Assembly: GCA_035295165.1 (NCBI GenBank)
Contig: DATGJN010000118.1
Coordinates: 1-35,379 of the forward strand
Origin: a bacterium
GTDB lineage: Bacteria > Sysuimicrobiota > Sysuimicrobiia > Sysuimicrobiales > Segetimicrobiaceae
Length of the DNA: 35,379 nt
Direction: 5' to 3'
The position numbers were made by a program, and so were the translations under genes. How positions within the stretch are numbered: position 1 is the stretch's first letter; the number at the start of each line of letters is the position of its first letter. The notes beneath the pieces were generated by a model that was not told the origin of the DNA, ran no database searches, and saw only the letters and a list, made by a program, of their open reading frames with translations. Positions 18,968 through 35,379 of the stretch are shown here, in pieces.

Positions 18968-19105
18968 CTACACGTCCGCGACGACGCCGTAGAATGACAC
19001 GAAGAACAGGAGGCCGAACAACAACAGCCAGAAGATCAGGTATCGCCAGTACACGACTGAGACGCTCGGCCCCTGCGACGCGCTCGACGAACGACGTTCC
19101 GCCAT
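18968..19105 (-). CDS. 45-residue single-helix membrane protein of the respiratory cluster
   Basis: A tiny protein with a polar N-terminus of about 18 residues and one strongly hydrophobic helix rich in Leu, Phe and Trp (about 19-43). Its ATG shares one base with the stop of the upstream FlpD-type gene (TGATG), which argues for translation and for membership of the same complex. Single-helix subunits of similar size accompany cytochrome b6f and oxidase complexes; by analogy it may stabilise the membrane part, but no family is recognised. Confidence 0.65.
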   Translation of the reverse strand: MAERRSSSASQGPSVSVVYWRYLIFWLLLFGLLFFVSFYGVVADV

Positions 19106-19617
19106 CACGCCCCCCCCTGCGCCGGCGCCGCGCCGCCGGGTGGTCCGCCGGCCGGGGCCGCCGGCCTCCTCGCCGGCGGGATCGCGGGACCGGGCATGCT
19201 CGCGATCCGCTGGCTGAACGCGCGGACGGCCTCGACAAACTCGGCCGCGGCGTGCTTGCCGTAAAACAGCGCCCCGATGCGCTCGGGATTGATCTTCTGC
19301 CGCTCCAACCGGCGCCGCAGCTGCTCGACCCGGTCCCCGATCAGGTTGTTGCCGAGCCGGTTGAAGCAGTCGCCAAGCGGGCACCCGCAGACGAACGCCC
19401 CGTCGGCGCCGTTTCGCAGCGCGAACTCCAGCCACGCCGGCCGCGTGAACCCGGAGCACGGGATCTTGATCAGGGTGACGTTCGGGAGGTCCCGCATCGT
19501 TCCGTCCTCGCGCGTCACCCCATCGGACGCAACCGACCAGTCGCAGAGGAACCCGACGATCTTGGGACCCCGGCCCGCGGCGGGCATGGGTTGTGGACGA
19601 TCGGCTAGCTCCGGCAT
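19105..19617 (-). CDS. FlpD/MvhD-type iron-sulfur electron-transfer protein
   Basis: A 170-residue protein of the FlpD/MvhD (methyl-viologen-reducing hydrogenase delta subunit) family. Seen are the N-terminal PKIVGFLCDWSV (C25), the conserved IPCSGFTRPAW (C54), and AFVCGCPLGDCFNRLGNN with C77, C79 and C84. These cysteines should bind a [2Fe-2S] cluster. In methanogens and relatives this protein passes electrons to HdrA for flavin-based bifurcation. Here no HdrA, hydrogenase or formate dehydrogenase gene is visible; the gene instead overlaps the end of the cytochrome b-ferredoxin fusion by 13 bases. The ATG at 19617 has GGAGAAGG upstream; a second ATG at 19587 is possible. The last 25 or so residues are a Pro/Ala/Gly tail of low complexity. 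Confidence 0.88.
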   Translation of the reverse strand: MPELADRPQPMPAAGRGPKIVGFLCDWSVASDGVTREDGTMRDLPNVTLIKIPCSGFTRPAWLEFALRNGADGAFVCGCPLGDCFNRLGNNLIGDRVEQLRRRLERQKINPERIGALFYGKHAAAEFVEAVRAFSQRIASMPGPAIPPARRPAAPAGGPPGGAAPAQGGA

Positions 19618-20762
19618 GCGCTCAGCACCTTCTCCTGAATATCCTTTTGGAGAAACCGCGGAAGTTCGAGCGCCTCGAACGGGCACGCCCCGACGCAGAT
19701 CCCGCACTCGACGCATCGCGACTCGAGGATGACCGCCCGCAGCTTGCGCGCCTGCGCGGCTTTTGTCACGCCCGGATTGGGAGTCGGCACCATCACGATG
19801 GCGTTGTACGGGCAGTCGTAGTAGCACAGCTCGCACCCCGTGCAGTTCGCGTCGATCACCTGCGCGACGCCCGAGTCCTTGATGCCGAGCTCCTTACGGG
19901 TCTCGGGAAGCTGGTACGGGATATAGAGGCCGTACGCCACGATCACGACGGCGAGCGCGATCAGCACCAGCGGCGGCAGGAACCGCATGGCCCAGTACGG
20001 TGTCAGGAACAGCCAGTCGACCGCCAGATCGGTCGGCGTGTGCAGCGCCGACGCCGGCGCCTGGCTGCTGACCGGGATGAGCCCGGTCAGCAACAGCACG
20101 AACCCGAGCGCGAACAGGGTCCACACGGCGGGCGGCCACACCTTAGGATGGCGGATACGCGTGTAGTGCCACCAGAGGAAGACGTACAGGCCGACTGCGG
20201 GTCCGACGTGGAGGAACAGGATCCGGGGCAAGAGCAGGTTCGTCAGGCCTTCGCCGCCGAACAGCGCGTGGCGCAGCCACCCGCCGACGAGCGGCACCTG
20301 CCCGGCCGCGTTCGCGGTCATTGCCACGAGCGCCGCGCTACGCTGGTCCCAGACGAGCACGTAGCCCGTCACGCCGATGAACCCCGCGAAGAGGAGCAGC
20401 ATCATACCGCTGATCCACGGTTCGTCCCGGGAGAACCGAAACCGCTCGGTGAACCAGTTGCGGAAGAAGTGCAGGAGGATCACGATCATGAACCCGTCGG
20501 CCGCGTACCGGTGGATGCCGCGGATGATCTGGCCGTACGGGACGTCGACCGTCAGGAACTGCACCGACGTGTAGGCTTGGTCGAACGACGGGGCGTAGTA
20601 CAGGAACAGGAAGATGCCCGACAGGATCAGCACCGTGAGGAACAGGTTGGCGAGGCCGCCGGTGTAGTAGAGCGGGTTGAAGTCCTCCGGGTACACCCGC
20701 GCGACGACGGTGTCCAGCCGAAGCGTGGCGTCGAGCAACCGGCCGAGCAGCCGTCTATACAC
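19605..20762 (-). CDS. Cytochrome b fused to a two-cluster [4Fe-4S] ferredoxin domain
   Basis: A 385-residue fusion. Residues about 1-290 form a cytochrome b with roughly seven to eight membrane helices. The four heme ligands are present: H84 and H98 in one helix, H185 and H199 in another, each pair 14 apart. The region matching the quinol-site PEWY loop reads VDWLF. The C-terminal domain (about 300-375) has two complete ferredoxin motifs: C307, C310, C313, C317 and C350, C353, C356, C360, each followed by Pro, suited to two [4Fe-4S] clusters on the cytoplasmic side. The ATG at 20762 overlaps the previous small membrane gene and the stop overlaps the FlpD-type gene. The arrangement suggests electron flow between a quinone pocket and soluble low-potential carriers; the direction cannot be told. 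Confidence 0.92.
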   Translation of the reverse strand: MYRRLLGRLLDATLRLDTVVARVYPEDFNPLYYTGGLANLFLTVLILSGIFLFLYYAPSFDQAYTSVQFLTVDVPYGQIIRGIHRYAADGFMIVILLHFFRNWFTERFRFSRDEPWISGMMLLLFAGFIGVTGYVLVWDQRSAALVAMTANAAGQVPLVGGWLRHALFGGEGLTNLLLPRILFLHVGPAVGLYVFLWWHYTRIRHPKVWPPAVWTLFALGFVLLLTGLIPVSSQAPASALHTPTDLAVDWLFLTPYWAMRFLPPLVLIALAVVIVAYGLYIPYQLPETRKELGIKDSGVAQVIDANCTGCELCYYDCPYNAIVMVPTPNPGVTKAAQARKLRAVILESRCVECGICVGACPFEALELPRFLQKDIQEKVLSACRS

Positions 20763-20949
20763 CCGTAAACCCTCCCTTGCGCAGGAACAACAGGATGAAC
20801 GAGTACGCGAGCAGGATCACCCCGATCAAGCTCCCCCCCAACAGCGGGTGATTCGTGAGCTCGCCCCAGACGATCCCAACGATGCACACCAGGCTCACCA
20901 GCGACAGAATCGCGATCCACGTTCCGTAGATCGACGCCCGGTCGGCCAT
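20755..20949 (-). CDS. 64-residue two-helix membrane protein of the respiratory cluster
   Basis: A small hydrophobic protein with two predicted helices (about 11-30 and 36-56) and a basic C-terminus ending LLFLRKGGFTGV. The ATG at 20949 has GGAGG eight bases upstream, a strong site; the in-frame GTG at 20958 would overlap it. The stop overlaps the start of the cytochrome b-ferredoxin gene by eight bases, implying coupling. No family is recognised. The context suggests a structural subunit of the same complex. Confidence 0.7.
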   Translation of the reverse strand: MADRASIYGTWIAILSLVSLVCIVGIVWGELTNHPLLGGSLIGVILLAYSFILLFLRKGGFTGV

Positions 20950-20954
20950 GCCGA

Positions 20955-21272
20955 TCACCTCCCCCTACCCGGCCCGGCCGACGGGTGGGCGGCCGGCCAC
21001 GTCGTGGCGTGGCGTCCCGCCGCGTCGCGCCGCGCCAGCACCCACTCGTACAGGCCCACCCGACGGCGCACCCGCCCGGCCGCGCGGTCCACCTCGTACA
21101 GTACGAACCCGAGCCACAGCATCACCACGACGAGGCCGGCCGCGAGGGCGACGACCGCCGCGGCGGCGTCGATCGTCGGCGCCGCACGCCACGCGCGCCA
21201 CGCCGAGAGAAACTCGCTGAGCCCCAGCGTCGCCGCGGCGAGGAGCGCATAGAACAGGAGCTTGCGCCGCAC
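20955..21272 (-). CDS. 105-residue two-helix membrane protein of the respiratory cluster
   Basis: A small protein starting with a basic MRRK and a short helix (about 5-22), then a second long hydrophobic helix (about 37-62), then a basic tail with LYEVDRAAGRVRRRVGLYEWVLARRD. The start is a GTG at 21272, only three bases after the cytochrome b stop. The final 25 residues are low complexity. No family is recognised; its fixed place between two cytochrome b genes suggests an assembly or accessory subunit. Confidence 0.65.
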   Translation of the reverse strand: MRRKLLFYALLAAATLGLSEFLSAWRAWRAAPTIDAAAAVVALAAGLVVVMLWLGFVLYEVDRAAGRVRRRVGLYEWVLARRDAAGRHATTWPAAHPSAGPGRGR

Positions 21273-21275
21273 GGC

Positions 21276-22430
21276 CTACGACGCCCCGGCGGGCCGCGCC
21301 GCCGGGCGTCCGCCGGTCCCCGCCGCGGCCGCGCGCCTGGCCCGGCCGCGGCGGTAGCTCAACTCCCACAGAAACGCCGCGAGCATCACGAGGACGGTGA
21401 TGCCCCAGATGAACGGCGGATCCCGGGAGATCACGGCGATGTTCAGCATAATGAGCGCGCTGAACCCGATCCAGTACACGAGCGCGAGCACGCCGACGAC
21501 GAAGAACAGCGGGCGCTGCGTCGGCAGCGTCTCCTTCGTGCGGTCGAGAAACGGCACGAGCATGCCGTACCCAATCAGCAGCGCTGGCGCGACGCCGGCC
21601 CACAACGGCGGCATGTATTTCACGACCTGGTACAGCGCGAGGAAGTACCAGTCCGAAAGCACGGGCAGCGGCGTTCGGTTGTTGTTCGCCCACTGGCCGA
21701 GGTCCGGCAGGTTGGTGAAGCTCACGAACGCGAGGAAACTCAGCACGAGCACGATCGCGAACGCCGAGAGATTGAGGTGGCGGCGGCGCGTCCGGTAGAA
21801 GAACGTCTCCGCCACGATCGCGAGGACGATCGAGATCCCGAAGTGGATCGCGTAGAACCGGGTCAGCGTGCCCTGGCCGAGCGCCGGCCCGCCAAGAAAG
21901 ATGTACGCGGTCGCGTGGCCCAGGCCGAGGTTTCCGAGGATCGGGATCTCGTCGTAGTATGTCGGCACGGTCAAGATCACCTTCGCCGCCCAGAACGCCC
22001 GCTGGTTCCACTCCAGCGTGTACCCGGTGACGCCCGAGATCATCGCCAGCACGAGCGACGCGAACAGGATCATCCACGTGAGCTCGCCCGGCTTCTTGTA
22101 CTCGCCGGCGAAGTACATGCGGTAGATCCGCAGCGTGATGCACGTGATCAGCATGTCACCGCCGTATTTGTGGAGCCCGCGCACCAGCCAGCCGAAGGGG
22201 ATGTCGTAGGTGATGTGCTCGATCGAGCGGTACGCGCCGGTCGTCGTCGGGATGTACCACAGCATCAGCACGACCCCGGAGACGATCACGACCATCCACG
22301 ACAACCAGACCAGGCTCCCCAGAATGTACAGGGGGTTGTCCTGGCGCGCCGTCTTCGTTTCGTCGAAGAGGTCCAGGTGCTGCTTGCGGTCCTGGAACCA
22401 TTCCTTCAGGTTTGCGAGTACCGCCTCCAC
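21276..22430 (-). CDS. Cytochrome b subunit of a Rieske/cytochrome b complex, n-side heme ligands missing
   Basis: A 384-residue cytochrome b with N- and C-terminal parts joined (about eight helices). Seen are RFYAIHFGIS in helix D and SDWYF (259-263) in the position of the PEWY/PDWYF quinol-oxidation loop. Of the four expected heme ligands only the p-side pair is present, H87 and H196. Fourteen residues after H87 stands R101 instead of His, and 14 and 15 residues after H196 stand F210 and F211. I re-translated both helices from the bases and the substitutions are real in this sequence. In the known family this would remove heme bH (bn). The ATG at 22430 follows the Rieske gene after 47 bases. 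Confidence 0.92.
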   Translation of the reverse strand: MEAVLANLKEWFQDRKQHLDLFDETKTARQDNPLYILGSLVWLSWMVVIVSGVVLMLWYIPTTTGAYRSIEHITYDIPFGWLVRGLHKYGGDMLITCITLRIYRMYFAGEYKKPGELTWMILFASLVLAMISGVTGYTLEWNQRAFWAAKVILTVPTYYDEIPILGNLGLGHATAYIFLGGPALGQGTLTRFYAIHFGISIVLAIVAETFFYRTRRRHLNLSAFAIVLVLSFLAFVSFTNLPDLGQWANNNRTPLPVLSDWYFLALYQVVKYMPPLWAGVAPALLIGYGMLVPFLDRTKETLPTQRPLFFVVGVLALVYWIGFSALIMLNIAVISRDPPFIWGITVLVMLAAFLWELSYRRGRARRAAAAGTGGRPAARPAGAS

Positions 22431-22477
22431 CGCTTACCTCCAACCTCCCGCCGTGGGCCCGCTGGGCCGCCCGCCGC

Positions 22478-23152
22478 CTACGCGCCTTGCGGCGCCGCCG
22501 GGTCCGTGGGCCGGCACTGCGCGATCGCCCCCACCTCGGCCCCGGTGACGACGATGTCGTCCCCGCGAATCTCGAACTTGAAGTAGCGTGCGCCCCGTGG
22601 CGCCGGACCGGAGATCACGTTTCCGGGGTTGTCGGGGTACTCGGGATCGTAAATACTGAAGTGACACGGACACGCCATCAGCGCGTGCTGTTCCCAGTTG
22701 GGCGGCGTAAAGCCGCCGTACCCGGCCGAGACCTCGTGGTAGTCGGACACGTAGTTGTAGATGCACCCGAGATGCGGGCAAATGCGGGAGAACAGCACGA
22801 TGTCGGTCTCCCCGTTGAAGCCGACGAAGCCCTCACTGTTCACGAACTTCACCTTCTTCGGGAGCCGGACCGCCACGCCGGGAACGTTGCTGGCCTCCTC
22901 CCCGTCCGGTGTGTACTGGACGAACTTCTGCACGTAGGTGAAGTAGAAGGAGTCCCACGGCTTCGCGAGCTGGGAGACCTTCCCAATCACCTGAGCGCCA
23001 CCCTGCGGCAGGTCGGGCGCGATCGTGAAGATGCCCCAGGGCTTGTCGTTCGGCTTCAGGTACCGGAACAGCGGCGAGAGGATCGCGACGAGGCCCCCGA
23101 TCACCGGGATCGCCGTCAGCGCCTTGAGCACGCTCCGCCTGTCGAATTTCAT
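22478..23152 (-). CDS. Rieske [2Fe-2S] iron-sulfur protein
   Basis: A 224-residue Rieske subunit that should pass electrons from quinol at the cytochrome b to cytochrome c. Box I is CPHLGC (C125, H127, C130) and box II is CPCHFSIYD (C161, C163, H164), giving the two Cys and two His ligands and the usual disulfide pair. The N-terminus reads FDRRSVLKAL followed by a hydrophobic segment (about 11-28), a twin-arginine signal that probably stays as the membrane anchor. An insertion lies between the two boxes (YNYVSDYHEVSAGYGGFTPPNW), of a kind found in several Gram-positive-type Rieske proteins. It follows the cytochrome c gene by 39 bases. Confidence 0.95.
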   Translation of the reverse strand: MKFDRRSVLKALTAIPVIGGLVAILSPLFRYLKPNDKPWGIFTIAPDLPQGGAQVIGKVSQLAKPWDSFYFTYVQKFVQYTPDGEEASNVPGVAVRLPKKVKFVNSEGFVGFNGETDIVLFSRICPHLGCIYNYVSDYHEVSAGYGGFTPPNWEQHALMACPCHFSIYDPEYPDNPGNVISGPAPRGARYFKFEIRGDDIVVTGAEVGAIAQCRPTDPAAPQGA

Positions 23153-23191
23153 CCGATCCGCTCCCCCTGCGTCACGTCCCGCCGCTTGTCC

Positions 23192-24064
23192 CTACTTGAT
23201 CGGCGGGTGCTTGTAGAAGAAGGTGTAGACGTAGTCCACGAGGTTGTTGACCTCGGCCGTGCTCAGCTTGCCCCGATAGCTCGGCATCGGTCCGCCGCCG
23301 TCGAGGATCGCGTTCGTGAGGTCCGCCCCGTTGCGCTGCACCATGTAGTTGATGTCGGTAAAGATACCCGGCCCTTCGTTGCGCGACCACGACCAGATCT
23401 GCGCCGCCATCTCCTGGCGGCGCGGGCCCTTGCCGTCGCCGTTGACGCCGTGGCACTGCGCGCACTGCGCTTCGTACAGACGCTTGCCCGCGCTCAACCC
23501 CTCGGGCGTGGTCCGGAACATCATCTCGTACACGTTCGCGTCCCACCGCTCAGCGTTCGTCAGTGTCTGCTGCTTGTTGGCGCCGAACGAGGCCTCGGGC
23601 CCGAACGCCGGCATCGCGGTGTACGCCCGCCCATCCGTGACGGTCTGGAACATGATCGCCGGGGTGATTACGCTCTCCAAATCGCGGTTGTGGAAATCGG
23701 CGGGCTTGCTCGGCACCGTCGGGCGGTGGATCGTGATCCCGAACAAGCCGACCACCAGCGCCAGTACGTCGTGTTGGGGCTCGACGAGCGTCGGCGCCAT
23801 CGGCCCGTTGCCGTGCCCGTCCATCCCGTGGCACACCGCGCAGTTCTGCCCGTACACCTGCTTGCCCGTGATCGCGTCCGGCACGATCGGCCGGTCGTTC
23901 TCGTCCGCCACGAGCGGCGTCTCGACATTCTCCGCCGGCGGGAGGGTCATGGGCGTCCGGGTGCCCTGAAGTCCGGTCCGGGGTTGGCAACCGGCGACCA
24001 CGACCGCGGCCGCGATCACCAGCAACAAGGCAGCCGGACGCGTCCGGCCGAACCCTCTCAGCAT
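23192..24064 (-). CDS. Diheme cytochrome c lipoprotein
   Basis: A 290-residue exported electron carrier. The signal peptide ends in a lipobox VAGC (C26), so it is probably lipid-anchored. Two class I-like cytochrome c domains follow: CAVCH at 75-79 with likely axial M151 (YTAMPAFG), and CAQCH at 201-205 with likely axial M260 (GPMPSYRG). The ATG at 24064 has GAGAGGG about six bases upstream. It heads the cluster cytochrome c-Rieske-cytochrome b and probably accepts electrons from the Rieske protein. Heme attachment would require the Ccm proteins encoded just upstream. Confidence 0.93.
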   Translation of the reverse strand: MLRGFGRTRPAALLLVIAAAVVVAGCQPRTGLQGTRTPMTLPPAENVETPLVADENDRPIVPDAITGKQVYGQNCAVCHGMDGHGNGPMAPTLVEPQHDVLALVVGLFGITIHRPTVPSKPADFHNRDLESVITPAIMFQTVTDGRAYTAMPAFGPEASFGANKQQTLTNAERWDANVYEMMFRTTPEGLSAGKRLYEAQCAQCHGVNGDGKGPRRQEMAAQIWSWSRNEGPGIFTDINYMVQRNGADLTNAILDGGGPMPSYRGKLSTAEVNNLVDYVYTFFYKHPPIK

Positions 24065-24278: not shown

Positions 24279-25289
24279 TCACGTCGCCGCGACCGGACGG
24301 CGCGCGAGCGCGACCGCGACGCCCGCGAGCAGCAGCACGGCGAGCACCGACGCGGCCGCGATCGGCCAGCGATCGTCTGACGCGGGCAGCCCGTCGAGCG
24401 TGATTGTGAGCTGCCCGCCGGCCGGCACCGGGCCAGCCGACCAGCGCGCGAAGCGCCGGCCCGCGTCCGTCACCTCGGCCCCGGCGCGAAACCCCGGCCC
24501 GGAGAGCCGCACCGACGGATCGCCCACCAGCACCTCGACGTCGGTCGCACCGTACGGCAGCACCCAGGGCCAGGCGAACCGGCGGGTGCGCGGCTCCAGG
24601 CCGAACGCGTACCCGACCTGCATCGCGCCCGGCAGCACCGGGATCGTGTCCGTGATGGCGCGATCGGTGAGCCGGGGGGCGCGCCAGCCTCCGATGAACT
24701 CGACCGCCTCCGCGCCACGCGGCAACGGAAACACGAGCGGATCGTCCTCGGTGACGAGGACCGCGCGGTCGCTACCGTTCACGAGGCGCTGGACCACGCT
24801 GACGCGCACCGCCCCGCGCACCGTGTCCACGACCGCGAACATCACGGTGCCGCGGACGATCGTGCGGTCACGCGTGGACTCGTACACAGCGAGCTCAACT
24901 GTGCGCGTCGGCGCGGCAGGCGTCAGGAGCACGCGCGTCTCATACGGCACGCCGCCGTACGCGGTCCGCACAAGAAACACGCGCACGCCGCCGACCGGCA
25001 GCGCCCGGAACGAGAATCGGCCGGCGTTGTCGGTGACCGTCCGCCGCTCCGAGGACGAGCCGCGCTCCACGATCTCGAGGCTCACCGGCTGGCTGCCGAG
25101 CGGGTGCACCGGGGGGGTGTGCTGCACGACCGCGCCCTGGATCCCTCCGATGGGGCCCGCCTCGGGGGCGACCGCGCCGGACGGCGCCGCGGCCCCCGAA
25201 GGGACCCACAGCGACGCCGCGACGCACAGAAGGAGGGCCGTTCCGGCCCCCCTTCGTGAAGGACGCAGCGACGCGCGCGCGTCTGGCAC
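24279..25289 (-). CDS. Secreted, C-terminally anchored protein with carboxypeptidase-regulatory-like domain
   Basis: A 336-residue exported protein. A basic N-terminus and hydrophobic stretch (about 14-35) make a signal peptide. A beta-rich segment (about 46-125) with ERRTVTDNAGRFSFRALPVGGVRVFLVRTAYGG resembles the carboxypeptidase regulatory-like (transthyretin-type) fold. A second beta-rich region follows, and a C-terminal membrane helix (about 308-328) ends in a basic tail. The GTG at 25289 has GAGG six bases upstream, overlapping the end of the ccmI-like gene; an open frame continues upstream but is antisense-like there. It closes the ccm operon. Its role is unknown; cytochrome handling at the membrane surface is a guess from position. 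Confidence 0.75.
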   Translation of the reverse strand: MPDARASLRPSRRGAGTALLLCVAASLWVPSGAAAPSGAVAPEAGPIGGIQGAVVQHTPPVHPLGSQPVSLEIVERGSSSERRTVTDNAGRFSFRALPVGGVRVFLVRTAYGGVPYETRVLLTPAAPTRTVELAVYESTRDRTIVRGTVMFAVVDTVRGAVRVSVVQRLVNGSDRAVLVTEDDPLVFPLPRGAEAVEFIGGWRAPRLTDRAITDTIPVLPGAMQVGYAFGLEPRTRRFAWPWVLPYGATDVEVLVGDPSVRLSGPGFRAGAEVTDAGRRFARWSAGPVPAGGQLTITLDGLPASDDRWPIAAASVLAVLLLAGVAVALARRPVAAT

Positions 25290-25297
25290 CCTGCGCC

Positions 25298-25603
25298 TCA
25301 GGTCGGCCGCTCCGCTCCGGCAGGCGCCGCGCGGTCCGCGGCAAGCGCATCGAGGCGGCGCAGCACGGCGACCGCCTCGGCCTGATACCGCGCGCGGAGC
25401 GCGGCGTAGTCCGCCTCGTCCAGCTTGCCGGTGTCGCGATCGAGCTCGATTTCCCGCAGCGCCCGATACGCCGCCTCGCGCGCGTGCAACAACCGGTCGC
25501 GCTCGGCCTCCCACGCCGGCGCGGCCGCGGGCCGCCACAGCGGCGCCAGGACGAACGCCGCCGCCGCGCACGCCAGGACGACGAGCGCCACCCCCAGCGT
25601 CAC
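25298..25603 (-). CDS. CcmI-like cytochrome c biogenesis protein (short)
   Basis: A 101-residue protein: one N-terminal membrane helix (about 2-23), then a charged alpha-helical segment with REAAYRALREIELDRDTGKLDEADYAALRARYQAEA. This pattern matches the N-terminal part of CcmI/CycH, where the helix and coiled region contact the heme lyase, but the TPR domain of full CcmI is absent. The GTG at 25603 overlaps the ccmF stop (GTGA). Similar short proteins accompany ccmF in other lineages. In the known system CcmI presents apocytochrome; here that is inferred only. Confidence 0.75.
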   Translation of the reverse strand: MTLGVALVVLACAAAAFVLAPLWRPAAAPAWEAERDRLLHAREAAYRALREIELDRDTGKLDEADYAALRARYQAEAVAVLRRLDALAADRAAPAGAERPT

Positions 25604-28256: not shown

Positions 28257-28943
28257 TCACGCGCCTTCGTCGGCGAACGCCTGCAGCCGAGTTTCGAGCA
28301 TGCCGAGCCGGATCCGCGCACGCACGAGCACCACGTAGAAGAGGCTCCACGCCGCCAGGCCGGCGAGCAGCGCCCACGCCATCGACGGGGCGAGCCCGAC
28401 GCTGTGCGTGGTGAAGATCACGGGGCTGAGCGCGCGCAGGTAGCGCGCCGACAGCCAGACGAGCGGCACGTCCACGAACCCGACGATCGCGAACACGGCC
28501 GCAAACCGAGCCTGCCGTGGGTCGTCGCCGGCGGCCGCGCGCAGCACGAGATAGCCGGTGTAGATCAGCCACAGAATGAGGTACGTCACGAGCTGCGGGT
28601 CCCACGTCCACCACGTCCCCCACACCGGGCGTGCCCACAGGGATCCCGTGATGATCACCAACGTCGCAAACAGGACGCCGATCTCCGCCGCGGACGCGCT
28701 TGCCACGTCCCACTCCCGCCGGCCGGTTCGCAGGTAGCGCACCCCAGCCCAGCACGCGTGGCCGAACGCGACGAAGCCCACCCACGCGAGCGGCAGGTGC
28801 ACGTAGAAGATGCGCTGGATGTCCCCCATCACCGCTTCGCGCTGAGCGTACACGAACGCGCCGTAGAGGGCGAGCAGCATCGTCGCGAAGCAGGCCCAGC
28901 CGAGCAGGCCGTCCGCGGAACGGGGCACTCGTCCGTGTGTCAT
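28257..28943 (-). CDS. ccmC: Heme handling protein CcmC
   Basis: A 228-residue membrane protein with six hydrophobic helices. The WWD motif reads WGTWWTWDPQLVTYLILWLIY, with conserved His residues in the flanking loops (IFYVHLPLAW and FTTHSVGL). CcmC presents heme to CcmE. The ATG at 28943 lies about eleven bases after a predicted transcription start; an in-frame TTG at 28970 lies at the promoter and is unlikely. It is the first gene of the ccmC-D-E-F-I group, separated from ccmAB by the importer operon. Confidence 0.94.
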   Translation of the reverse strand: MTHGRVPRSADGLLGWACFATMLLALYGAFVYAQREAVMGDIQRIFYVHLPLAWVGFVAFGHACWAGVRYLRTGRREWDVASASAAEIGVLFATLVIITGSLWARPVWGTWWTWDPQLVTYLILWLIYTGYLVLRAAAGDDPRQARFAAVFAIVGFVDVPLVWLSARYLRALSPVIFTTHSVGLAPSMAWALLAGLAAWSLFYVVLVRARIRLGMLETRLQAFADEGA

Positions 28944-28960
28944 CGCGGCATCACGCGAAA

Positions 28961-28989
28961 AGCATAGCAAACGCCTGGAGGGGTTTCAA
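28961..28989 (-). promoter_or_regulatory. Promoter for the ccmCDEF operon
   Basis: On the minus strand TTGAAA (28989-28984) is followed after 17 bases by TATGCT (28966-28961). Five and four of six bases match the sigma-70 consensus. The start of transcription would be near 28954, giving a very short leader before ccmC at 28943. Confidence 0.65.
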
Positions 28990-29017
28990 CGAACGCCGGA
29001 CTCGGCGGCACGCAACG

Positions 29018-29863
29018 TCACTGCCTGACGCGGATCACCATGTTGACGGGATTGATGAATCGGAGCGCCGTCAGCAGCAGCGCAAGGCCGGTGACCATGT
29101 AGACGACGGCCATCGCGTCGATCGCTTGGCTCGGCCGGATCCCCGCCGCGAACGCCGCGTAGTAAAGCGCGACGACGAGCGTCTGGCTCTTGGCCCCAGA
29201 CACGAGGAACGTCAGCTCGAACAGCGCGATCGCCCGCACGAGGATCAACAGCCCCGCCGCGAGCACGCCGGGGAGGGCGATCGGCAGCAGCACGCGCCGG
29301 AACACCCGCCACGGCGACGCGCCGAGCGTGCGCGCCGCCCGTTCCAGGTTCGGGTCGATCTGCTCGAAGAACGGCGTCATGATCAGCACCACGAACGGCA
29401 TCGCCGGCACGATGTTCACGATGATCACGCCTGCAAGCGACCCGCCGAGGCGGGCCGTGTACAGCATCGCAGCCAGCGGGATCCCGTAGGTGATGGGGGG
29501 CACCAGCATCGGAAGGATCAACAACAGCAGGAGCAGCGGTCGCCCCGGAAAGGCCCGCCGCGCCAGGACATACGCCGCCGGCACCCCAAGCGCGAGACTC
29601 ACGATCGTCACGGTCAACCCCACGACAATCGTGATCGCCAGGACGTAGCCGAGGTCGAACTCGGCAATGGCAAACCGGTACCACTTCGTCGTGTACGCGT
29701 CGGGCAGCCACCCGCCGAACCACGTCGAGGCGATCGAGTTGAGGAACGCCGAGAGGAAGATGCCGGCCACGAGCACGGCAAACGCGCCGACGAGCGCATA
29801 CACCCACCAACTCGGGCCGCCGCCCGCGTGGGCGCGGCGCGGGCGCGCGACGGACCGGTTCAT
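29018..29863 (-). CDS. ABC importer permease (PotC/FbpB-like)
   Basis: A 281-residue inner-membrane permease with six helices. The EAA-like loop reads EQIDPNLERAARTLGASPWRVFRRVLLPIALPG, which couples to the ATPase. Similarity is to the second permease of spermidine/putrescine, iron(III) and phosphonate-type importers. The ATG at 29863 overlaps the stop of the first permease gene (ATGA). A much longer open frame continues upstream but is an alternative frame of the other transporter genes. The substrate cannot be told from the permease. Confidence 0.9.
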   Translation of the reverse strand: MNRSVARPRRAHAGGGPSWWVYALVGAFAVLVAGIFLSAFLNSIASTWFGGWLPDAYTTKWYRFAIAEFDLGYVLAITIVVGLTVTIVSLALGVPAAYVLARRAFPGRPLLLLLLILPMLVPPITYGIPLAAMLYTARLGGSLAGVIIVNIVPAMPFVVLIMTPFFEQIDPNLERAARTLGASPWRVFRRVLLPIALPGVLAAGLLILVRAIALFELTFLVSGAKSQTLVVALYYAAFAAGIRPSQAIDAMAVVYMVTGLALLLTALRFINPVNMVIRVRQ

Positions 29864-30777
29864 CCGCGTCCTCCGATCGTGGGGCCCTGGTAGGCACGGT
29901 TCCGTGCCGCCAGCACGAGCGCCACGAAGACGAGCTCGATCGCGGCCATCACCATCGCGATCGCGGACGCCTGCGGGTAGTCGAAACGCTCGTACGCCGC
30001 CTGCCACGCGGCGAGCGCGATGACGCGTGTCTCGCCGGCGGGTTGACCGACCAGCACCGCCGATGGGAATACCGAGAACGTCGCGACGAACGACAGCGCA
30101 GCCGCTGCGGCGATACCCGGCGCGAGCAGCGGGAGCGTCACGCGCAACAGCCGCTGCCACCACCCGGCGCCGAGCGTCCGCGCCGCCTGCTCGAGCCGTG
30201 GGTCGATCCCGGACGCATACCCGAGGAGAACCAAGAACACCGCCGGGAAGTCCGAGATCATGAGCGACAGGAACACCCCGGTGTAGTTGTGCACGAACTG
30301 CACCGGCGTGCCGATGATGTGGAGCGCGAGCAGGAGCTTGTTGAGCCAGCCGGCCGGCCCGAAGAACTCGATCATCCCCTCCGCGAGCAGCACGGTGCCC
30401 AGCGTCATCGGGATCACGAGCAGCCCGGTGATCACCCGCTGCCCGGGGAGCGGGCGCCGCAGTCGGTACGCCAGCGGCAGCGCGATCAGAAGGTCGAGCA
30501 GCGTCACGGGCACGGCAAGCCGCAGCGTGTTCCAGATGGACGTCCGCTCCCGTGGGTCGCCGAAGAACACGGCGTAGTTCGCGAACGCCCCGGCCTTGGC
30601 CAGGGCACCCTGCGGATGGAGCGACAGCATCAGACCGTATGCGAACGGATAGATAAAGAGCATCAGGACGACCAGCAGCGCGGGCAGGAGCGGCAGCAAC
30701 ACGGCCCCACCTCGGCGCGCGCGCGGCGCCGGGACCGCCGCACCTTCCCCCGTCCGGTGTCGCACCGCCCGCTGCAT
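29860..30777 (-). CDS. ABC importer permease (PotB-like)
   Basis: A 305-residue permease with six membrane helices and a basic, Pro-rich N-terminus of about 30 residues. The coupling loop reads SGIDPRLEQAARTLGAGWWQRLLRVTLPLLAPG. It is the partner of the downstream permease, as in potABC-type transporters. The ATG at 30777 lies five bases after the ATPase stop. An in-frame extension to 30906 overlaps the ATPase gene and is rejected. Confidence 0.9.
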   Translation of the reverse strand: MQRAVRHRTGEGAAVPAPRARRGGAVLLPLLPALLVVLMLFIYPFAYGLMLSLHPQGALAKAGAFANYAVFFGDPRERTSIWNTLRLAVPVTLLDLLIALPLAYRLRRPLPGQRVITGLLVIPMTLGTVLLAEGMIEFFGPAGWLNKLLLALHIIGTPVQFVHNYTGVFLSLMISDFPAVFLVLLGYASGIDPRLEQAARTLGAGWWQRLLRVTLPLLAPGIAAAAALSFVATFSVFPSAVLVGQPAGETRVIALAAWQAAYERFDYPQASAIAMVMAAIELVFVALVLAARNRAYQGPTIGGRG

Positions 30778-30782
30778 GTCGC

Positions 30783-31895
30783 TCACTCGGGGGGAAACAC
30801 GAGCAACCGGTCCGGGTCCACGCGCAGAGCGACGGGCGCCCCCTGCGGCCAGCGCTCGGCCGCCCGCACGACGAAGAGGGCACTCGTGTCCGTTTCCACG
30901 CTGCACTCGAACGCGTCGCCGATGAACTCGGCGAACTCGACCCTCGCCGGCACGCCCCCCGCCGCATCACCAAGCGGCCGCAACACCACGTCCTCCGGCC
31001 GCACCGCTGCGACGGCCTCGGCGCCCGCGGCCAGATCCCCGCGCGCCGTGCCTTCGAGCCGCAGGCCGCCCAGCGCGACGACGTGGACGCGGCCGCCGCG
31101 CACCGCCTCGACCCGTACGGGAAAGAGATTGCGGTACCCGAAAAAGTTGGCCACAAAGGAGGACTGCGGATGGAGATACACGTCCTCCGGCGTCCCGACC
31201 TGCCGCAGCGTGCCGTCCTTCATCAGCGCGATGCGGTCGGACAGCGACAGCGCCTCCTCCTGGTCGTGTGTCACGTAGAAGGTGGTGAGCCCGAGGGTCT
31301 GATGCAGCCGGCGGATCTCGAGGCGCATCTCCAGCCTGAGCTTCGCATCCAGGTTGCTCAGGGGCTCGTCCATCAGCAAGAGACGGGGTTCGATGACCAG
31401 CGCGCGGGCCAACGCGACCCGCTGCTGCTGGCCGCCGCTCAGCTGCGCCGGATACCGGTCGCCCAGATCCTCGAGGTGGACGAGGGCAAGTGCCTGCGCG
31501 ACGCGGCGGCTCAACGCGTCCGGCCGCACCCCCATCATCTCGAGCCCGAACGCCACGTTGCGCCCGACTGTCAGGTGCGGGAACAGCGCATAGCTCTGGA
31601 ACACTACCCCGAACCCGCGCCGCTCCGGAGGCACGGGTGACAGGTCGTCCCCGTCGAGCAGGATCTGCCCCGCGTCGGGGTCGACCAGGCCCGCGAGGCA
31701 GTTCAGCGCGGTGCTTTTGCCGCAGCCGGAGGGCCCGAGCAGACTGATGAATTCGCCGCCGTGTACGTCGAGATCGAACGCCGAGAGCGCAACGACGTCG
31801 GCGAACCGCTTCGTCAGCCCGCGAATCTCCATGCGACCGATCTTCCGGCCAGGGGGCGCGGCCGGCGCCTCACCCCCCGGCCCGGACGGCCGCAT
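30783..31895 (-). CDS. ABC importer ATPase (PotA/FbpC-like)
   Basis: An ATP-binding subunit with Walker A GPSGCGKST (about 54-62), signature LSGGQQQR (about 152), Walker B LLLMDEPLSNLD and switch THDQEEAL, followed by a C-terminal TOBE-like domain, the layout of the PotA/FbpC/MalK group. Numbering is from the ATG at 31895 (370 residues). Other starts are the GTG at 31913, which would overlap the binding-protein stop (GTGA), and the ATG at 31832, which begins at the conserved MEIRGLTKRF. The Pro/Gly-rich N-terminal extension is unusual and may not be translated. Confidence 0.92.
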   Translation of the reverse strand: MRPSGPGGEAPAAPPGRKIGRMEIRGLTKRFADVVALSAFDLDVHGGEFISLLGPSGCGKSTALNCLAGLVDPDAGQILLDGDDLSPVPPERRGFGVVFQSYALFPHLTVGRNVAFGLEMMGVRPDALSRRVAQALALVHLEDLGDRYPAQLSGGQQQRVALARALVIEPRLLLMDEPLSNLDAKLRLEMRLEIRRLHQTLGLTTFYVTHDQEEALSLSDRIALMKDGTLRQVGTPEDVYLHPQSSFVANFFGYRNLFPVRVEAVRGGRVHVVALGGLRLEGTARGDLAAGAEAVAAVRPEDVVLRPLGDAAGGVPARVEFAEFIGDAFECSVETDTSALFVVRAAERWPQGAPVALRVDPDRLLVFPPE

Positions 31896-31909
31896 CGCCG
31901 TCTGCGCGG

Positions 31910-33124
31910 TCACTTGAGTTTGTTCGCGCCGACCCGTTGGTCCCAAATCTGAAACGCCTGCACGAGCTTGTCGGGATCGAGCGGAATCTCGATCGGCTGG
32001 CTCCGAATCAAATCGTCAAACGACTTACGCCGGACCGGGGCGAGCGTGTCCTGACTGTCTTTCGGCGCCATCGCCAGCGTCACGCCCTTGACGGCCGGCC
32101 CGGGATAGAAGTATCCGGTGTCGTACACCTTGGCCTGCTGGTCCGGCCGCAGCGTCCACGCGATCAGATCGAGGACCAACCCGAGCATCTCCGGCGAGTT
32201 GCCCTTCGGCACGCAGATGTACTGCGTGTCCGCGACAAGGTGCTCGCCCGTGAACGTAAATGCCCCGAAGTTCTTGGGCACCACGCCGAGGGCTCGGACG
32301 TTGAGGTCCCACCCCATCGTCGAGACCGCGATCGTGCGCGCCCCCTGCCCTAGTTCTTGAAATGTCCCGGCCGTCCCGGTCGGGTAGTACTGGATGCTCT
32401 GGCCAAGCTGCTGGTAGTACGGCCACACCTTGGTCCAGGATTGGGGCTCGCGCGGCTGCGCTTCGCCGAGCAGGTACGGCAACCCCATCAAGAAGCTCCG
32501 GCCAGGGCCGGAGTTTGCAGGACGCGCGTAGATCAGCTGCTGCGGGTTGCTCTTCGCCCACTGCAGCAGGTCGTCGGGCGTCTTGGGCGGCGACGGCAAC
32601 TTCGCGGGATTGTACGTGAACGTCGGTCCATAGTTGCCGAACACGTCGAGGATGCCGTACCCTTGGGCGAGCCCCTGCGCCTTGGGCTGCTGGTAGTTAC
32701 CGATGAGGTTCGGGAACTTCTGCTGAAAGTCCGGCAGGATCCGCTGCCAAATGTCTTGGACGATGCCCGCGGACAACGCATCGGAACCCGTCAGCACCAT
32801 GTGGATCTGCAGCTGGTTTGCCAACTGTTGCGCCTTGATCTTCGCCGGGAGTTCCGGCGCCGTGGCCTGCTGGTAATTGACCTGGCTAACGTACTGGCCG
32901 TGCGACTTGGCGTAGTCCTCGATGATCGCCTTCGTCAGCTGCAGCTGACCCGCGACATCGATGATCGTCAACGCGAGCGGGCGAGACGGCATCGGGGGCA
33001 GCGCGGCCGCCTGCGCGGCCTCGACCGCGCCAAGACCCCGCGACCACAGCCCCGCGCCGAGCGCGGTCGCCCCGGCCCCGATCAGAAACGCCCTGCGCTT
33101 GAACGCCTTGCCGTCGCTCTCCAC
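31910..33124 (-). CDS. Extracellular solute-binding protein with Tat signal
   Basis: A 404-residue binding protein of the family 1/PotD-like type. The N-terminus carries a twin-arginine signal, KRRAFLIGAGATALGAG, so it is probably exported folded by Tat; no lipobox Cys is seen. The mature part contains typical periplasmic-binding features such as TGSDALSAGIVQDIW and ICVPKGNSPEMLGLVLDLIAW. The GTG at 33124 is chosen because GGAGGTG lies about five bases upstream; the ATG at 33142 is an alternative. Together with the following ATPase and permeases it forms an importer. The ligand is unknown; the architecture is that of polyamine, iron or organophosphate importers, while the adjacent LacI regulator would more often go with carbohydrates. 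Confidence 0.87.
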   Translation of the reverse strand: MESDGKAFKRRAFLIGAGATALGAGLWSRGLGAVEAAQAAALPPMPSRPLALTIIDVAGQLQLTKAIIEDYAKSHGQYVSQVNYQQATAPELPAKIKAQQLANQLQIHMVLTGSDALSAGIVQDIWQRILPDFQQKFPNLIGNYQQPKAQGLAQGYGILDVFGNYGPTFTYNPAKLPSPPKTPDDLLQWAKSNPQQLIYARPANSGPGRSFLMGLPYLLGEAQPREPQSWTKVWPYYQQLGQSIQYYPTGTAGTFQELGQGARTIAVSTMGWDLNVRALGVVPKNFGAFTFTGEHLVADTQYICVPKGNSPEMLGLVLDLIAWTLRPDQQAKVYDTGYFYPGPAVKGVTLAMAPKDSQDTLAPVRRKSFDDLIRSQPIEIPLDPDKLVQAFQIWDQRVGANKLK

Positions 33125-33194
33125 ATGGCACCTCCCACGCATGATCGACTGCGCCTCTCGCACTCTGGCTTTTCGTAGCACTTCACCCACCCCC

Positions 33195-34205
33195 CTACGG
33201 TGCGCTCGCGCGCGCCACCAGTTCGGGCCGGATAACGACCTCCGCACGCTCGCCGCGGTGCCCCGACCCCGCGATCCTGCCCAACAGCATCCGCACCGCG
33301 GACGCGCCGATCTCGTACTTGGAGACGCGCATCGTCGTCAACGACGGCGTCACCAGTCTTGCCAGCAAGATGTCGTCGCACCCCACGATCGCCACGTCGT
33401 CCGGGACACGAACCCCGAGGTCATGGCACGCCTGGAGCGCGCCGATCGCGACCAGGTCGTTGTAACACACGAGCCCGTCGATCCCCCGGTTCGCGGACAG
33501 GAGGCTCGTCGCCGCCTGGTAGCCGCCCTCGAGGTAGGGCGGACAGGATACGATCGACGACGGGTCGTGCAGCCCGCCAGCGTCACCTACGGCGTTACGG
33601 AAGCCGTGCACCCGCTCCCGGCCGCTGTGCGAGTTCTCGGGCCCGGCGAGCATCGCCAGCCTCCTCCGGTGGCCGGCGAGCAGGTGGCCCACGGCCTGCC
33701 GGCTGCCGCTCGCATCATCGACACGCACGGTCCCGGCCGTTTCGTTCGGGACCGTGCGGTTGACGAGCACGACGGCGTGCTGCCGCTTGAGCATCGGCAC
33801 GAGTTGCTCGTCGGGAAGACGGGCGCTACACACCACCACACCGTCCACCCGTTTCTCCTCGAGCAGACGCAACACAGCGACCTCGCGCTCCGCCTGCTCG
33901 ATCGTGTTGCAGAGGAACACGCTGTACCCGGCCGCGAGTGCGACGTCCTCCGCGCCCCGTGCGATCTCTGGAAAGAACGGGTTCGCGATGTCCGGCACGA
34001 CCAGACCCAGACTCAGCGTCCGCCGAGTCACCAGGCTCCGGGCGACGGCGTTGGGGCGATACCCCAACCGCTGGATGACCTCTGACACGAGCCGGCGGGT
34101 TGTCGGGCTGATTTCACCTTTGTTGTTAAGCACACGAGACACCGTCTGGGTCGACACCCCAGCCTCGCGCGCGACGTCTGAGATCGTTATTGTTGACTTC
34201 ATCAT
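33195..34205 (-). CDS. LacI/GalR family transcriptional repressor
   Basis: About 336 residues. The N-terminal helix-turn-helix is canonical: ITISDVAREAGVSTQTVSRVLNNKGEISPTTRRLV, with the hinge helix region YRPNAVARSL. The periplasmic-binding-like effector domain follows (about 60-330), with GLVVPDIANPFF and DGLVCYNDLVAIGAL. The ATG at 34205 (or the adjacent 34202) is preferred over the in-frame ATG at 34250, because the predicted transcription start and two inverted repeats lie between them. It precedes the importer genes by about 70 bases and is their likely regulator, and probably its own. The effector is unknown. Confidence 0.92.
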   Translation of the reverse strand: MMKSTITISDVAREAGVSTQTVSRVLNNKGEISPTTRRLVSEVIQRLGYRPNAVARSLVTRRTLSLGLVVPDIANPFFPEIARGAEDVALAAGYSVFLCNTIEQAEREVAVLRLLEEKRVDGVVVCSARLPDEQLVPMLKRQHAVVLVNRTVPNETAGTVRVDDASGSRQAVGHLLAGHRRRLAMLAGPENSHSGRERVHGFRNAVGDAGGLHDPSSIVSCPPYLEGGYQAATSLLSANRGIDGLVCYNDLVAIGALQACHDLGVRVPDDVAIVGCDDILLARLVTPSLTTMRVSKYEIGASAVRMLLGRIAGSGHRGERAEVVIRPELVARASAP

Positions 34206-34220
34206 CACAAGTGACGGAAT

Positions 34221-34232
34221 GTTAACGCTAAC
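34221..34232. promoter_or_regulatory. LacI-type operator candidate
   Basis: GTTAACGCTAAC is a palindrome with five of six pairs matching around a central CG, the usual layout of LacI/GalR operators. It lies in the leader of the repressor gene, just downstream of the predicted transcription start, which fits autoregulation. Confidence 0.55.
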
Positions 34233-34247
34233 GTGAGCCTTCACGTT
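34230..34247. promoter_or_regulatory. Second inverted repeat in the lacI-type promoter
   Basis: AACGTGAGCCTTCACGTT has perfect seven-base arms around a four-base centre. It directly abuts the other operator-like palindrome and covers the predicted transcription start. It could be a second binding site for this repressor or a site for another regulator. Confidence 0.5.
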
Positions 34248-34248
34248 C

Positions 34249-34278
34249 ATTCTACTACGAGTCGCCTGGTCCCTTCAA
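34249..34278 (-). promoter_or_regulatory. Promoter for the LacI-type repressor
   Basis: On the minus strand TTGAAG (34278-34273) and TAGAAT (34254-34249) are separated by 18 bases. Transcription would start near 34241, inside the inverted repeat and upstream of the ATG at 34205. Confidence 0.55.
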
Positions 34279-34309
34279 TTGGGGGTGGGACGGCGTGAGG
34301 TGACGTTCG

Positions 34310-34978
34310 TCAGTCAGCCACGACGTACTCGAACAGCCACGCTCCCAGCAGCACGAAGATGATGTCGTATGCGGTCAGCAACTTGATGGGCCCGAGGAGC
34401 GCGTCGAACCCGGCGCCGGCAAGCGCCAACCCGACGCCGGCGAGCGACACGATGATCACCGGAAGCACAACGGGCAGCAACAGGATCGGGAGCAGCACCT
34501 CGCGGAGCCGGGTGGTCGCGGTCATGGCGCCCAACAGAGTGCCGACCGCCGCGAACCCCACGCCGCCGAGCACGAGCGGGGCCGCGAGCGCAGGGGCACG
34601 GCGCCCCACGTCGGGATTCACGAACACGGCGGCGGCGACGACCACGACGGCCTGGAGGACAATGATGAGCACGAGGTTGGCGGCGCACTTGCCGAGGAAC
34701 ACCTCAGCACGACCGACGGGCGTCAGCAGGATCCCCCGGAGGGCGTCCCGCTCCTGCTCGATCGCATGCGACCGAGCCAGGCCGAGCGTCGCCCCGAACG
34801 CGACCGTCACCCACAAGATCGCGGGGGTCACGACCGCAGCCGCGCTCGGATCGGCCCCGACGGCGAGCCCCAGGATGACGACGGTGAGAAACGCGACGAG
34901 GCTCATCGAGCTCAGCAGCTCTCGCGTGCGTGCCTCGACGACGAGGTCCTTCCACGCCAGCAACACAACGGCCCTCAC
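34310..34978 (-). CDS. ccmB: Heme exporter permease CcmB
   Basis: A 222-residue membrane protein with six helices. The N-terminal WKDLVVEARTRELLSS segment and length match CcmB, the permease of the CcmAB transporter that uses ATP to release holo-CcmE from CcmC. The GTG at 34978 overlaps the ccmA stop (GTGA). The gene is separated from ccmC by the LacI/importer group, about 5.4 kb. The assignment rests on the CcmA neighbour and the WKDL motif; a general ABC-2 permease is the alternative. Confidence 0.85.
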   Translation of the reverse strand: MRAVVLLAWKDLVVEARTRELLSSMSLVAFLTVVILGLAVGADPSAAAVVTPAILWVTVAFGATLGLARSHAIEQERDALRGILLTPVGRAEVFLGKCAANLVLIIVLQAVVVVAAAVFVNPDVGRRAPALAAPLVLGGVGFAAVGTLLGAMTATTRLREVLLPILLLPVVLPVIIVSLAGVGLALAGAGFDALLGPIKLLTAYDIIFVLLGAWLFEYVVAD

Positions 34979-35379
34979 GGGTCCGGCTCCACACCGGCGG
35001 CGTCCCGGTACCACGTCTCGAATGCCGCCGTGTCCAGTCCCGCAAGCGGTCGGGGCGGGCCGAGGCGCCCGTGCACGAGGACGCGCGCCTGTTCGGCGAC
35101 GCGGAACGCCTCCGCCGCGTGATGCGTGGTCACGATGAGCGCGCCACCCTGCGCGCGAAACTCGCCGAGGAACCCGGTGAGCCGGCTCGCGGCGTCGGGA
35201 TCGAGGCCGGCAAGCGCCTCGTCGAGCAACAACACCGTCGGCTGGTGCACCAGCGCCCGCGCGAGCGCCGCCCGCTGCAGCAGTCCCCGCGACAGGCTGC
35301 GCACCGGGTCGTCGCGACGACCGAGCCCGACAAGGTCACACGCCCAGATCGCGCGCTCCCGCACGTCCCGCACCCCGTA
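34975..35379 (-). CDS. ccmA: CcmA-like ABC ATPase (partial, 5' end beyond window)
   Basis: The C-terminal 134 residues of an ABC ATPase. Seen are the signature region VRSLSRGLLQRAALARAL (a variant of the usual LSxGQ), Walker B TVLLLDEALAGLDPDA and the switch His in IVTTHHAAEAF. The Walker A part lies outside the window, and the frame stays open to the last base. Overlap with a CcmB-type permease gene supports CcmA. The signature has RGLLQ where SGGQ or AGQ is usual, which deserves comparison with relatives. Confidence 0.82.
   Translation of the reverse strand, partial: YGVRDVRERAIWACDLVGLGRRDDPVRSLSRGLLQRAALARALVHQPTVLLLDEALAGLDPDAASRLTGFLGEFRAQGGALIVTTHHAAEAFRVAEQARVLVHGRLGPPRPLAGLDTAAFETWYRDAAGVEPDP

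Follow-up and report, generated by a model that had tools for sequence, protein, structure and literature searches.

The cytochrome bc1 and b6f complexes are homodimers of one kind of cytochrome b. In a typical cytochrome b the first histidine of helix B and of helix D binds heme bL, and the second histidine of each binds heme bH. Electron transfer from one half of a bc1-type complex to the other, and its importance, have long been debated, both halves being identical; these enzymes are able to cross electrons between halves, and we know of none that depends on doing so. Another membrane system, Qmo, exchanges electrons with quinone through a membrane heme b, iron-sulfur (FeS) clusters and a FlpD domain; it has HdrA-type flavoproteins and no Rieske protein. 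Rieske/cytochrome b complexes of anammox bacteria (Kustd1480-1485 and Kuste4569-4574) carry a cytoplasmic FeS-containing module, and the proposal is that they bifurcate electrons from quinol toward a low-potential acceptor in the cytoplasm; in the published account cytochrome b forms a homodimer in these complexes, accompanied by multiheme cytochromes c and a flavin adenine dinucleotide (FAD) NAD(P) oxidoreductase (PMC12954380). Here we describe an eight-gene set with two unlike cytochromes b, which we call b1 and bFd, a Rieske protein and a FlpD-like protein. It lies in a 35,379-nucleotide stretch of DNA (the window; GenBank assembly GCA_035295165.1, contig DATGJN010000118.1) from a bacterium of the phylum Sysuimicrobiota. 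The ligands missing from one cytochrome b are present in the other. We propose, with a probability of about 0.42, that the products form an asymmetric Rieske/cytochrome b complex, probably a heterodimer, and that its low-potential electron crosses from b1 to bFd and leaves through an FeS/FlpD port.

The eight genes all lie on the minus strand, from 24064 to 18968. A preliminary description of the window had listed the same genes at the same positions, and open reading frame (ORF) calls, motifs and Pfam and NCBIfam profile searches bear it out. The first three gaps are 39, 47 and 3 bases; among the last five genes, neighbours share 1-13 bases. In order, they are:

23192..24064, minus strand: diheme cytochrome c with a lipoprotein signal (lipobox VVAGC, two CxxCH, PF13442), putative periplasmic high-potential acceptor
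22478..23152, minus strand: Rieske [2Fe-2S] protein (CPHLGC and CPCHFSIYD)
21276..22430, minus strand: cytochrome b1, b6+subunit-IV-like (PF00033 and PF00032; H87/H196 present, R101/F210 at the bH positions; SDWY Qo-like motif)
20955..21272, minus strand: small membrane protein, 105 residues, about two transmembrane (TM) helices (ORF; kept in relatives)
20755..20958, minus strand: small membrane protein, at most 67 residues, two TM helices (ORF; kept in relatives)
19605..20762, minus strand: cytochrome bFd, six TM helices and a C-terminal two-[4Fe-4S] domain (PF00033, E=2.5e-31, and Fer4; H84, H98, H185, H199)
19105..19617, minus strand: FlpD/MvhD-like [2Fe-2S] protein with four conserved Cys (PF02662, 83 bits against a cut-off of 22.3)
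18968..19105, minus strand: 45-residue single-TM protein (ORF; kept in relatives)

The feature that carries our argument, and one absent from the preliminary description, is the loss of the bH ligands in b1. Both heme-bL histidines are kept (H87, H196). At the bH position of helix B stands an invariant arginine (R101), which aligns with the bH ligand histidine of a solved b6 structure. The helix D position is not histidine either: it is F210 in the window, and relatives mostly have Phe or Tyr there. A Glu at 208 is invariant. Every b1 examined lacks both bH histidines. A bH-less cytochrome b was not seen in other phyla among the best matches inspected, from 36 genomes of two phyla. The Rieske side of b1 is retained, with SDWYFL and a cd1 stretch containing Trp. 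The canonical Qo motif is P[E/D/P/V]W[Y/F], to be compared with SDWY in b1, mostly [VIL]D[WV][LF] in bFd, and PEWY or PDWY in the canonical paralogs. These canonical cytochromes b of the same phylum have all four histidines, and two of them are encoded in the window's own genome. The two Rieske/cytochrome b-cytochrome c sets on contigs C22 and C3 of that genome (L100 and L101) are of the ordinary kind and have PEWY and PDWY, the second set lying near a COX1 gene; other Rieske/cytochrome b genes of the phylum (L103-L107, L112) adjoin ORFs with 5 to 9 CxxCH motifs.

Cytochrome bFd has what b1 has lost. Its four heme histidines (84, 98, 185, 199) and eight cluster cysteines are all invariant in a 16-row alignment of the phylum, which contains no other invariant Cys; a single relative has Ser in place of one cluster Cys. 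The Qo motif is weakened and the cd1 aromatics are gone. An AlphaFold2 model built from 67 diverse sequences is confident (predicted local distance difference test, pLDDT, 89.3; predicted template modelling score, pTM, 0.85), a first prediction from 16 close sequences having reached a pLDDT of 47 and not been used. The model has a bc1-like fold, matching bc1 cytochrome b in Foldseek at an E of about 1e-10, with the FeS domain after the last helix. Six helices, with topology assigned by homology, would place this domain on the cytoplasmic side, the same side as bH. With the canonical paralogs intact, one cytochrome b without bH ligands next to another with four histidines, FeS clusters and a weak Qo site looks like complementary, not random, decay. 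These complementary losses are a better argument for joint action of the two b subunits than is gene order by itself, and we regard their asymmetric pairing as probable.

The gene set is real and conserved across Sysuimicrobiota. The preliminary description had proposed looking for the same gene order in relatives: it is identical in 18 of 18 complete annotated loci, at protein identities of 54-90%, the sole exception being one locus (L047) in which the 45-residue gene was not detectable. bFd, at 54% identity or more, occurs in 37 of the phylum's 43 genomes, so the set is not a chance arrangement. Every complete locus has the diheme cytochrome c gene upstream and retains the FlpD gene, and the b1/bFd pair is never separated except at contig ends. 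In G004, too, genes for the Rieske protein and b1 lie where a contig ends. Among the 43 genomes the set was not found in G008-G011, nor in G019 (rated 85% complete). G008-G011 form a single genus, the one without any heme-copper oxidase.

Where did such a set come from? A tree of cytochrome b cores, some of whose branches are long (L093, L109), splits in two: canonical cytochromes b and b1 occupy one side (99/96), and the other unites bFd with single-chain proteins that join a cytochrome b, two [4Fe-4S] clusters and FlpD (99/96). Recent duplication of one cytochrome b within the operon is ruled out by these placements. bFd belongs to the single-chain clan by its four histidines and two [4Fe-4S] motifs as well as by the tree, FlpD here being a separate gene. 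The single-chain proteins (L052:7860-9506, L053:7920-9497, L081-L092) occur in 19 of 24 genomes in the phylum of L052, a Nitrospirae metagenome-assembled genome (MAG), and in 10 of 52 in that of L053, a Deltaproteobacteria MAG. Their genes usually adjoin coxII, coxI and a SCO gene. Three of them (L087-L089) add a C-terminal periplasmic domain, which is a separate gene in L052. Since FeS domain and FlpD are fused to this type of cytochrome b elsewhere, they are likely to be functionally tied to bFd here. From such comparisons it appears that, in Sysuimicrobiota, a cytochrome b-FeS-FlpD module joined a Rieske/cytochrome b module whose cytochrome b lost bH.

The redox partners on either side can be described in part. 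CPHLGC and CPCH[FL]SIYD are present in all aligned relatives of the Rieske protein, which has no Pfam match at 1e-3 and matches NCBIfam Rieske models below their own cut-offs. Ser and Tyr near a Rieske cluster raise its potential. Both are kept, and export of electrons would need just such a high-potential Rieske protein. FlpD aligns to MvhD of PDB 5odc (E=8.8e-18) and is single-copy in the window's genome. Its usual partner in known bifurcating enzymes, HdrA, was not found in that genome or in most relatives, and a search with NF040770 returned only the FlpD of the operon; a FlpD that merely serves HdrA or a 3c hydrogenase is thereby ruled out. In one genome, G043, a QmoB/HdrA-like protein has a C-terminal FlpD domain (L113). 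In Sporomusa ovata MvhD is found mostly in the membrane fraction and a membrane link has been proposed (PMC9430772), which makes FlpD plausible as a membrane port. MenD is present in the window's genome; the futalosine-pathway enzymes, searched for in the same genome, were not found.

Put together, these parts suggest how the enzyme could work. Menaquinol would be oxidised at the Qo-type site of b1, beside the Rieske protein. The first electron would pass by way of the Rieske cluster and the diheme cytochrome c to an oxidase, and the second to heme bL of b1. Without heme bH the usual path inside b1 would be closed, so a cross-over to bFd would be needed. Most simply, the electron would cross to bL of bFd and then reach bH of bFd on the cytoplasmic side. 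From there it may pass on to the pair of [4Fe-4S] clusters, FlpD and a cytoplasmic partner, or perhaps, additionally or instead, reduce a quinone at bH. The enzyme would thus be a quinol bifurcator whose low-potential branch uses the second cytochrome b to reach an iron-sulfur port on the cytoplasmic side. Bifurcation energetics of this sort have been argued for the anammox complexes (PMC12954380). For this asymmetric complex speak the phylum-wide gene order, the complementary ligand losses, the clan of cytochrome b-[4Fe-4S]2-FlpD proteins that includes bFd, the confident model of bFd, the Ser and Tyr of the Rieske protein, the absence of the operon from the one genus that has no heme-copper oxidase, and MenD. 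Export at the FlpD port is just as tentative as the complex taken whole. The strictest version, a natural heterodimer with obligatory bL-to-bL transfer in which the low-potential electrons from bifurcation go to FeS/FlpD as cytoplasmic acceptor and not back to the quinone pool, we consider doubtful.

Several observations weigh against the proposal. In several genomes, among them G034 (rated 100% complete), no cytochrome b system besides this gene set was found at E<=1e-20. Half of the respiratory electrons would then be forced to FlpD unless returned to quinone, which counts against obligatory export. The energetic margin looks thin, as menaquinone and an ordinary cytochrome c leave little driving force for reduction at the level of ferredoxin. 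The window's genome yielded no HdrA to receive electrons from FlpD. Finally, some oxidase-linked cytochromes b in other phyla have no FeS-FlpD part (L096 is a clan member of this kind), so that part is not always needed.

The main rival keeps the two-cytochrome-b architecture and reverses the flow at the port. Reduced ferredoxin or a flavoprotein would deliver an electron by way of FlpD and the [4Fe-4S] clusters to bH of bFd, where it would join the one from Qo and bL in reducing one quinone, much as in Mitchell's first Q-cycle. Overall, a reductant in the cytoplasm would be oxidised by cytochrome c and protons would be translocated. Such import is thermodynamically easy. It would give an outlet to the reduced ferredoxin expected from the 2-oxoacid:ferredoxin oxidoreductases present in 42 of 43 genomes, and it suits both an operon whose occurrence tracks that of oxidase and its place as the sole Rieske/cytochrome b system found in some genomes. 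Yet import offers no reason for the loss of bH in b1, no known reductant of FlpD was found in these genomes, and inspection, the only approach taken on this point, revealed no recognisable quinone-site signature on the N side of bFd. On balance we judge it unlikely, if the best of the alternatives to export.

Improbable, to our minds, is that the operon encodes two separate enzymes, one a homodimer of b1 and Rieske protein in which bL is the sole b heme, the other an exchanger of electrons between quinone pool and cytoplasm built from bFd and FlpD. That the bFd-FlpD module occurs alone, without Rieske protein, in two other phyla is what recommends it. Yet a b1 homodimer without bH would leave the low-potential electron no outlet, and, contig ends apart, the two genes stay together throughout the phylum. 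Least probable is a Q-cycle enzyme split in two, with Qo and bL in b1, bH and an N-side quinone site in bFd, and FeS/FlpD left to redox sensing or a minor side reaction; it would account for genomes in which no other cytochrome b complex was found and for oxidase-linked relatives without the FeS-FlpD part, yet eight invariant cluster cysteines and a FlpD gene in every complete locus are too strict for a side role.

The genome that contains the window (G000, with the window as contig C118) is 4.79 Mb and 98% complete. Its nearest named relatives are MAGs called 'Terrabacteria group bacterium ANGP1', which NCBI places under Candidatus Sysuimicrobiota (formerly CSP1-3). Downstream of the set lies a polyprenyl synthetase gene and upstream lies a group of genes for cytochrome c maturation: ccmF, ccmE, a CcmC-like gene and ccmB. 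Within this group, ccmB and the ccmC-like gene are separated by an ABC transporter of the sugar type and a LacI regulator (28257-35014). Near the respiratory genes, the product of 24279-25571 is predicted to be secreted and has a carboxypeptidase-regulatory-like domain; a look-alike of it, judged by eye, sits beside oxidase genes at L053:13000-14034. Pfam and NCBIfam searches gave no family for the two small membrane proteins of the set. In several families, COX1-like proteins (L042:7571-8986, L044:5237-6631, L048:2829-4277, L051:9732-11138), next to FixO-like and CcoP-like cytochromes c, are encoded immediately downstream of the operon. We considered these as a cbb3 oxidase that might act as electron sink and rejected the idea: the COX1-like protein is without the His ligands of intact COX1 and is probably no oxidase.

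How, then, does this complex compare with what is known? With bc1 and b6f it shares the Rieske protein (CxHxGC and CxCH), the cytochrome b fold, the bL ligands, a c-type cytochrome and expected quinol oxidation; SDWY of b1 is Qo-like and departs from the canonical P[E/D/P/V]W[Y/F]. It differs in having two unlike cytochromes b, one (b1) with a single His pair and the other (bFd) with both pairs, two [4Fe-4S] clusters and FlpD. Two unlike b genes in one operon suggest something other than a bc1-style homodimer. A covalent heme cn of the b6f type is unlikely, as the Cys that would hold it has no counterpart: b1 has no invariant Cys in the phylum alignment and bFd none beyond its clusters. If one half is indeed unable to complete the reaction by itself, transfer across the dimer can be put to a yes/no test.

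The single-chain proteins have the same domain order, four heme histidines, eight cluster cysteines and [VIL]-D-W motif, in the same clan as bFd. They differ in being one chain rather than two genes and in sitting beside oxidase genes; no Rieske protein or second cytochrome b adjoins them in the stretches read. FlpD itself is of the family of MvhD in HdrABC-MvhADG and in the MvhD-HdrCBA-MetVF complex of S. ovata (PMC9430772), which work with HdrA. Nor was an HdrA-like protein of the kind found in Qmo detected in the window's genome. The proposal would bring FlpD into aerobic respiration, in little-known soil and hot-spring bacteria whose phylum was called uncultivated by a 2024 paper, the text of which is silent on Rieske proteins, cytochrome b and complex III (PMC11604079).

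The preliminary description knew of no described complex with this set. For the exact set our literature searches found none either; the view that nothing similar exists has to be qualified, given the single-chain proteins in two phyla and the anammox complexes (PMC12954380). Its broader idea, that quinol and periplasmic cytochrome c are connected to cytoplasmic FeS/FlpD by two b subunits of different kinds, is supported by the complementary losses and the gene set. The nearest known system is the anammox Rieske/cytochrome b complexes with their NAD(P) oxidoreductase. Among the eight genes here there is none for an FAD/NAD(P) oxidoreductase or other flavoprotein; in place of one kind of cytochrome b and multiheme cytochromes c there are two different cytochromes b, a diheme cytochrome c and FlpD. 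The complex would therefore be a second, differently built candidate, besides the anammox proposal, for quinol-based bifurcation to a low-potential carrier in the cytoplasm.

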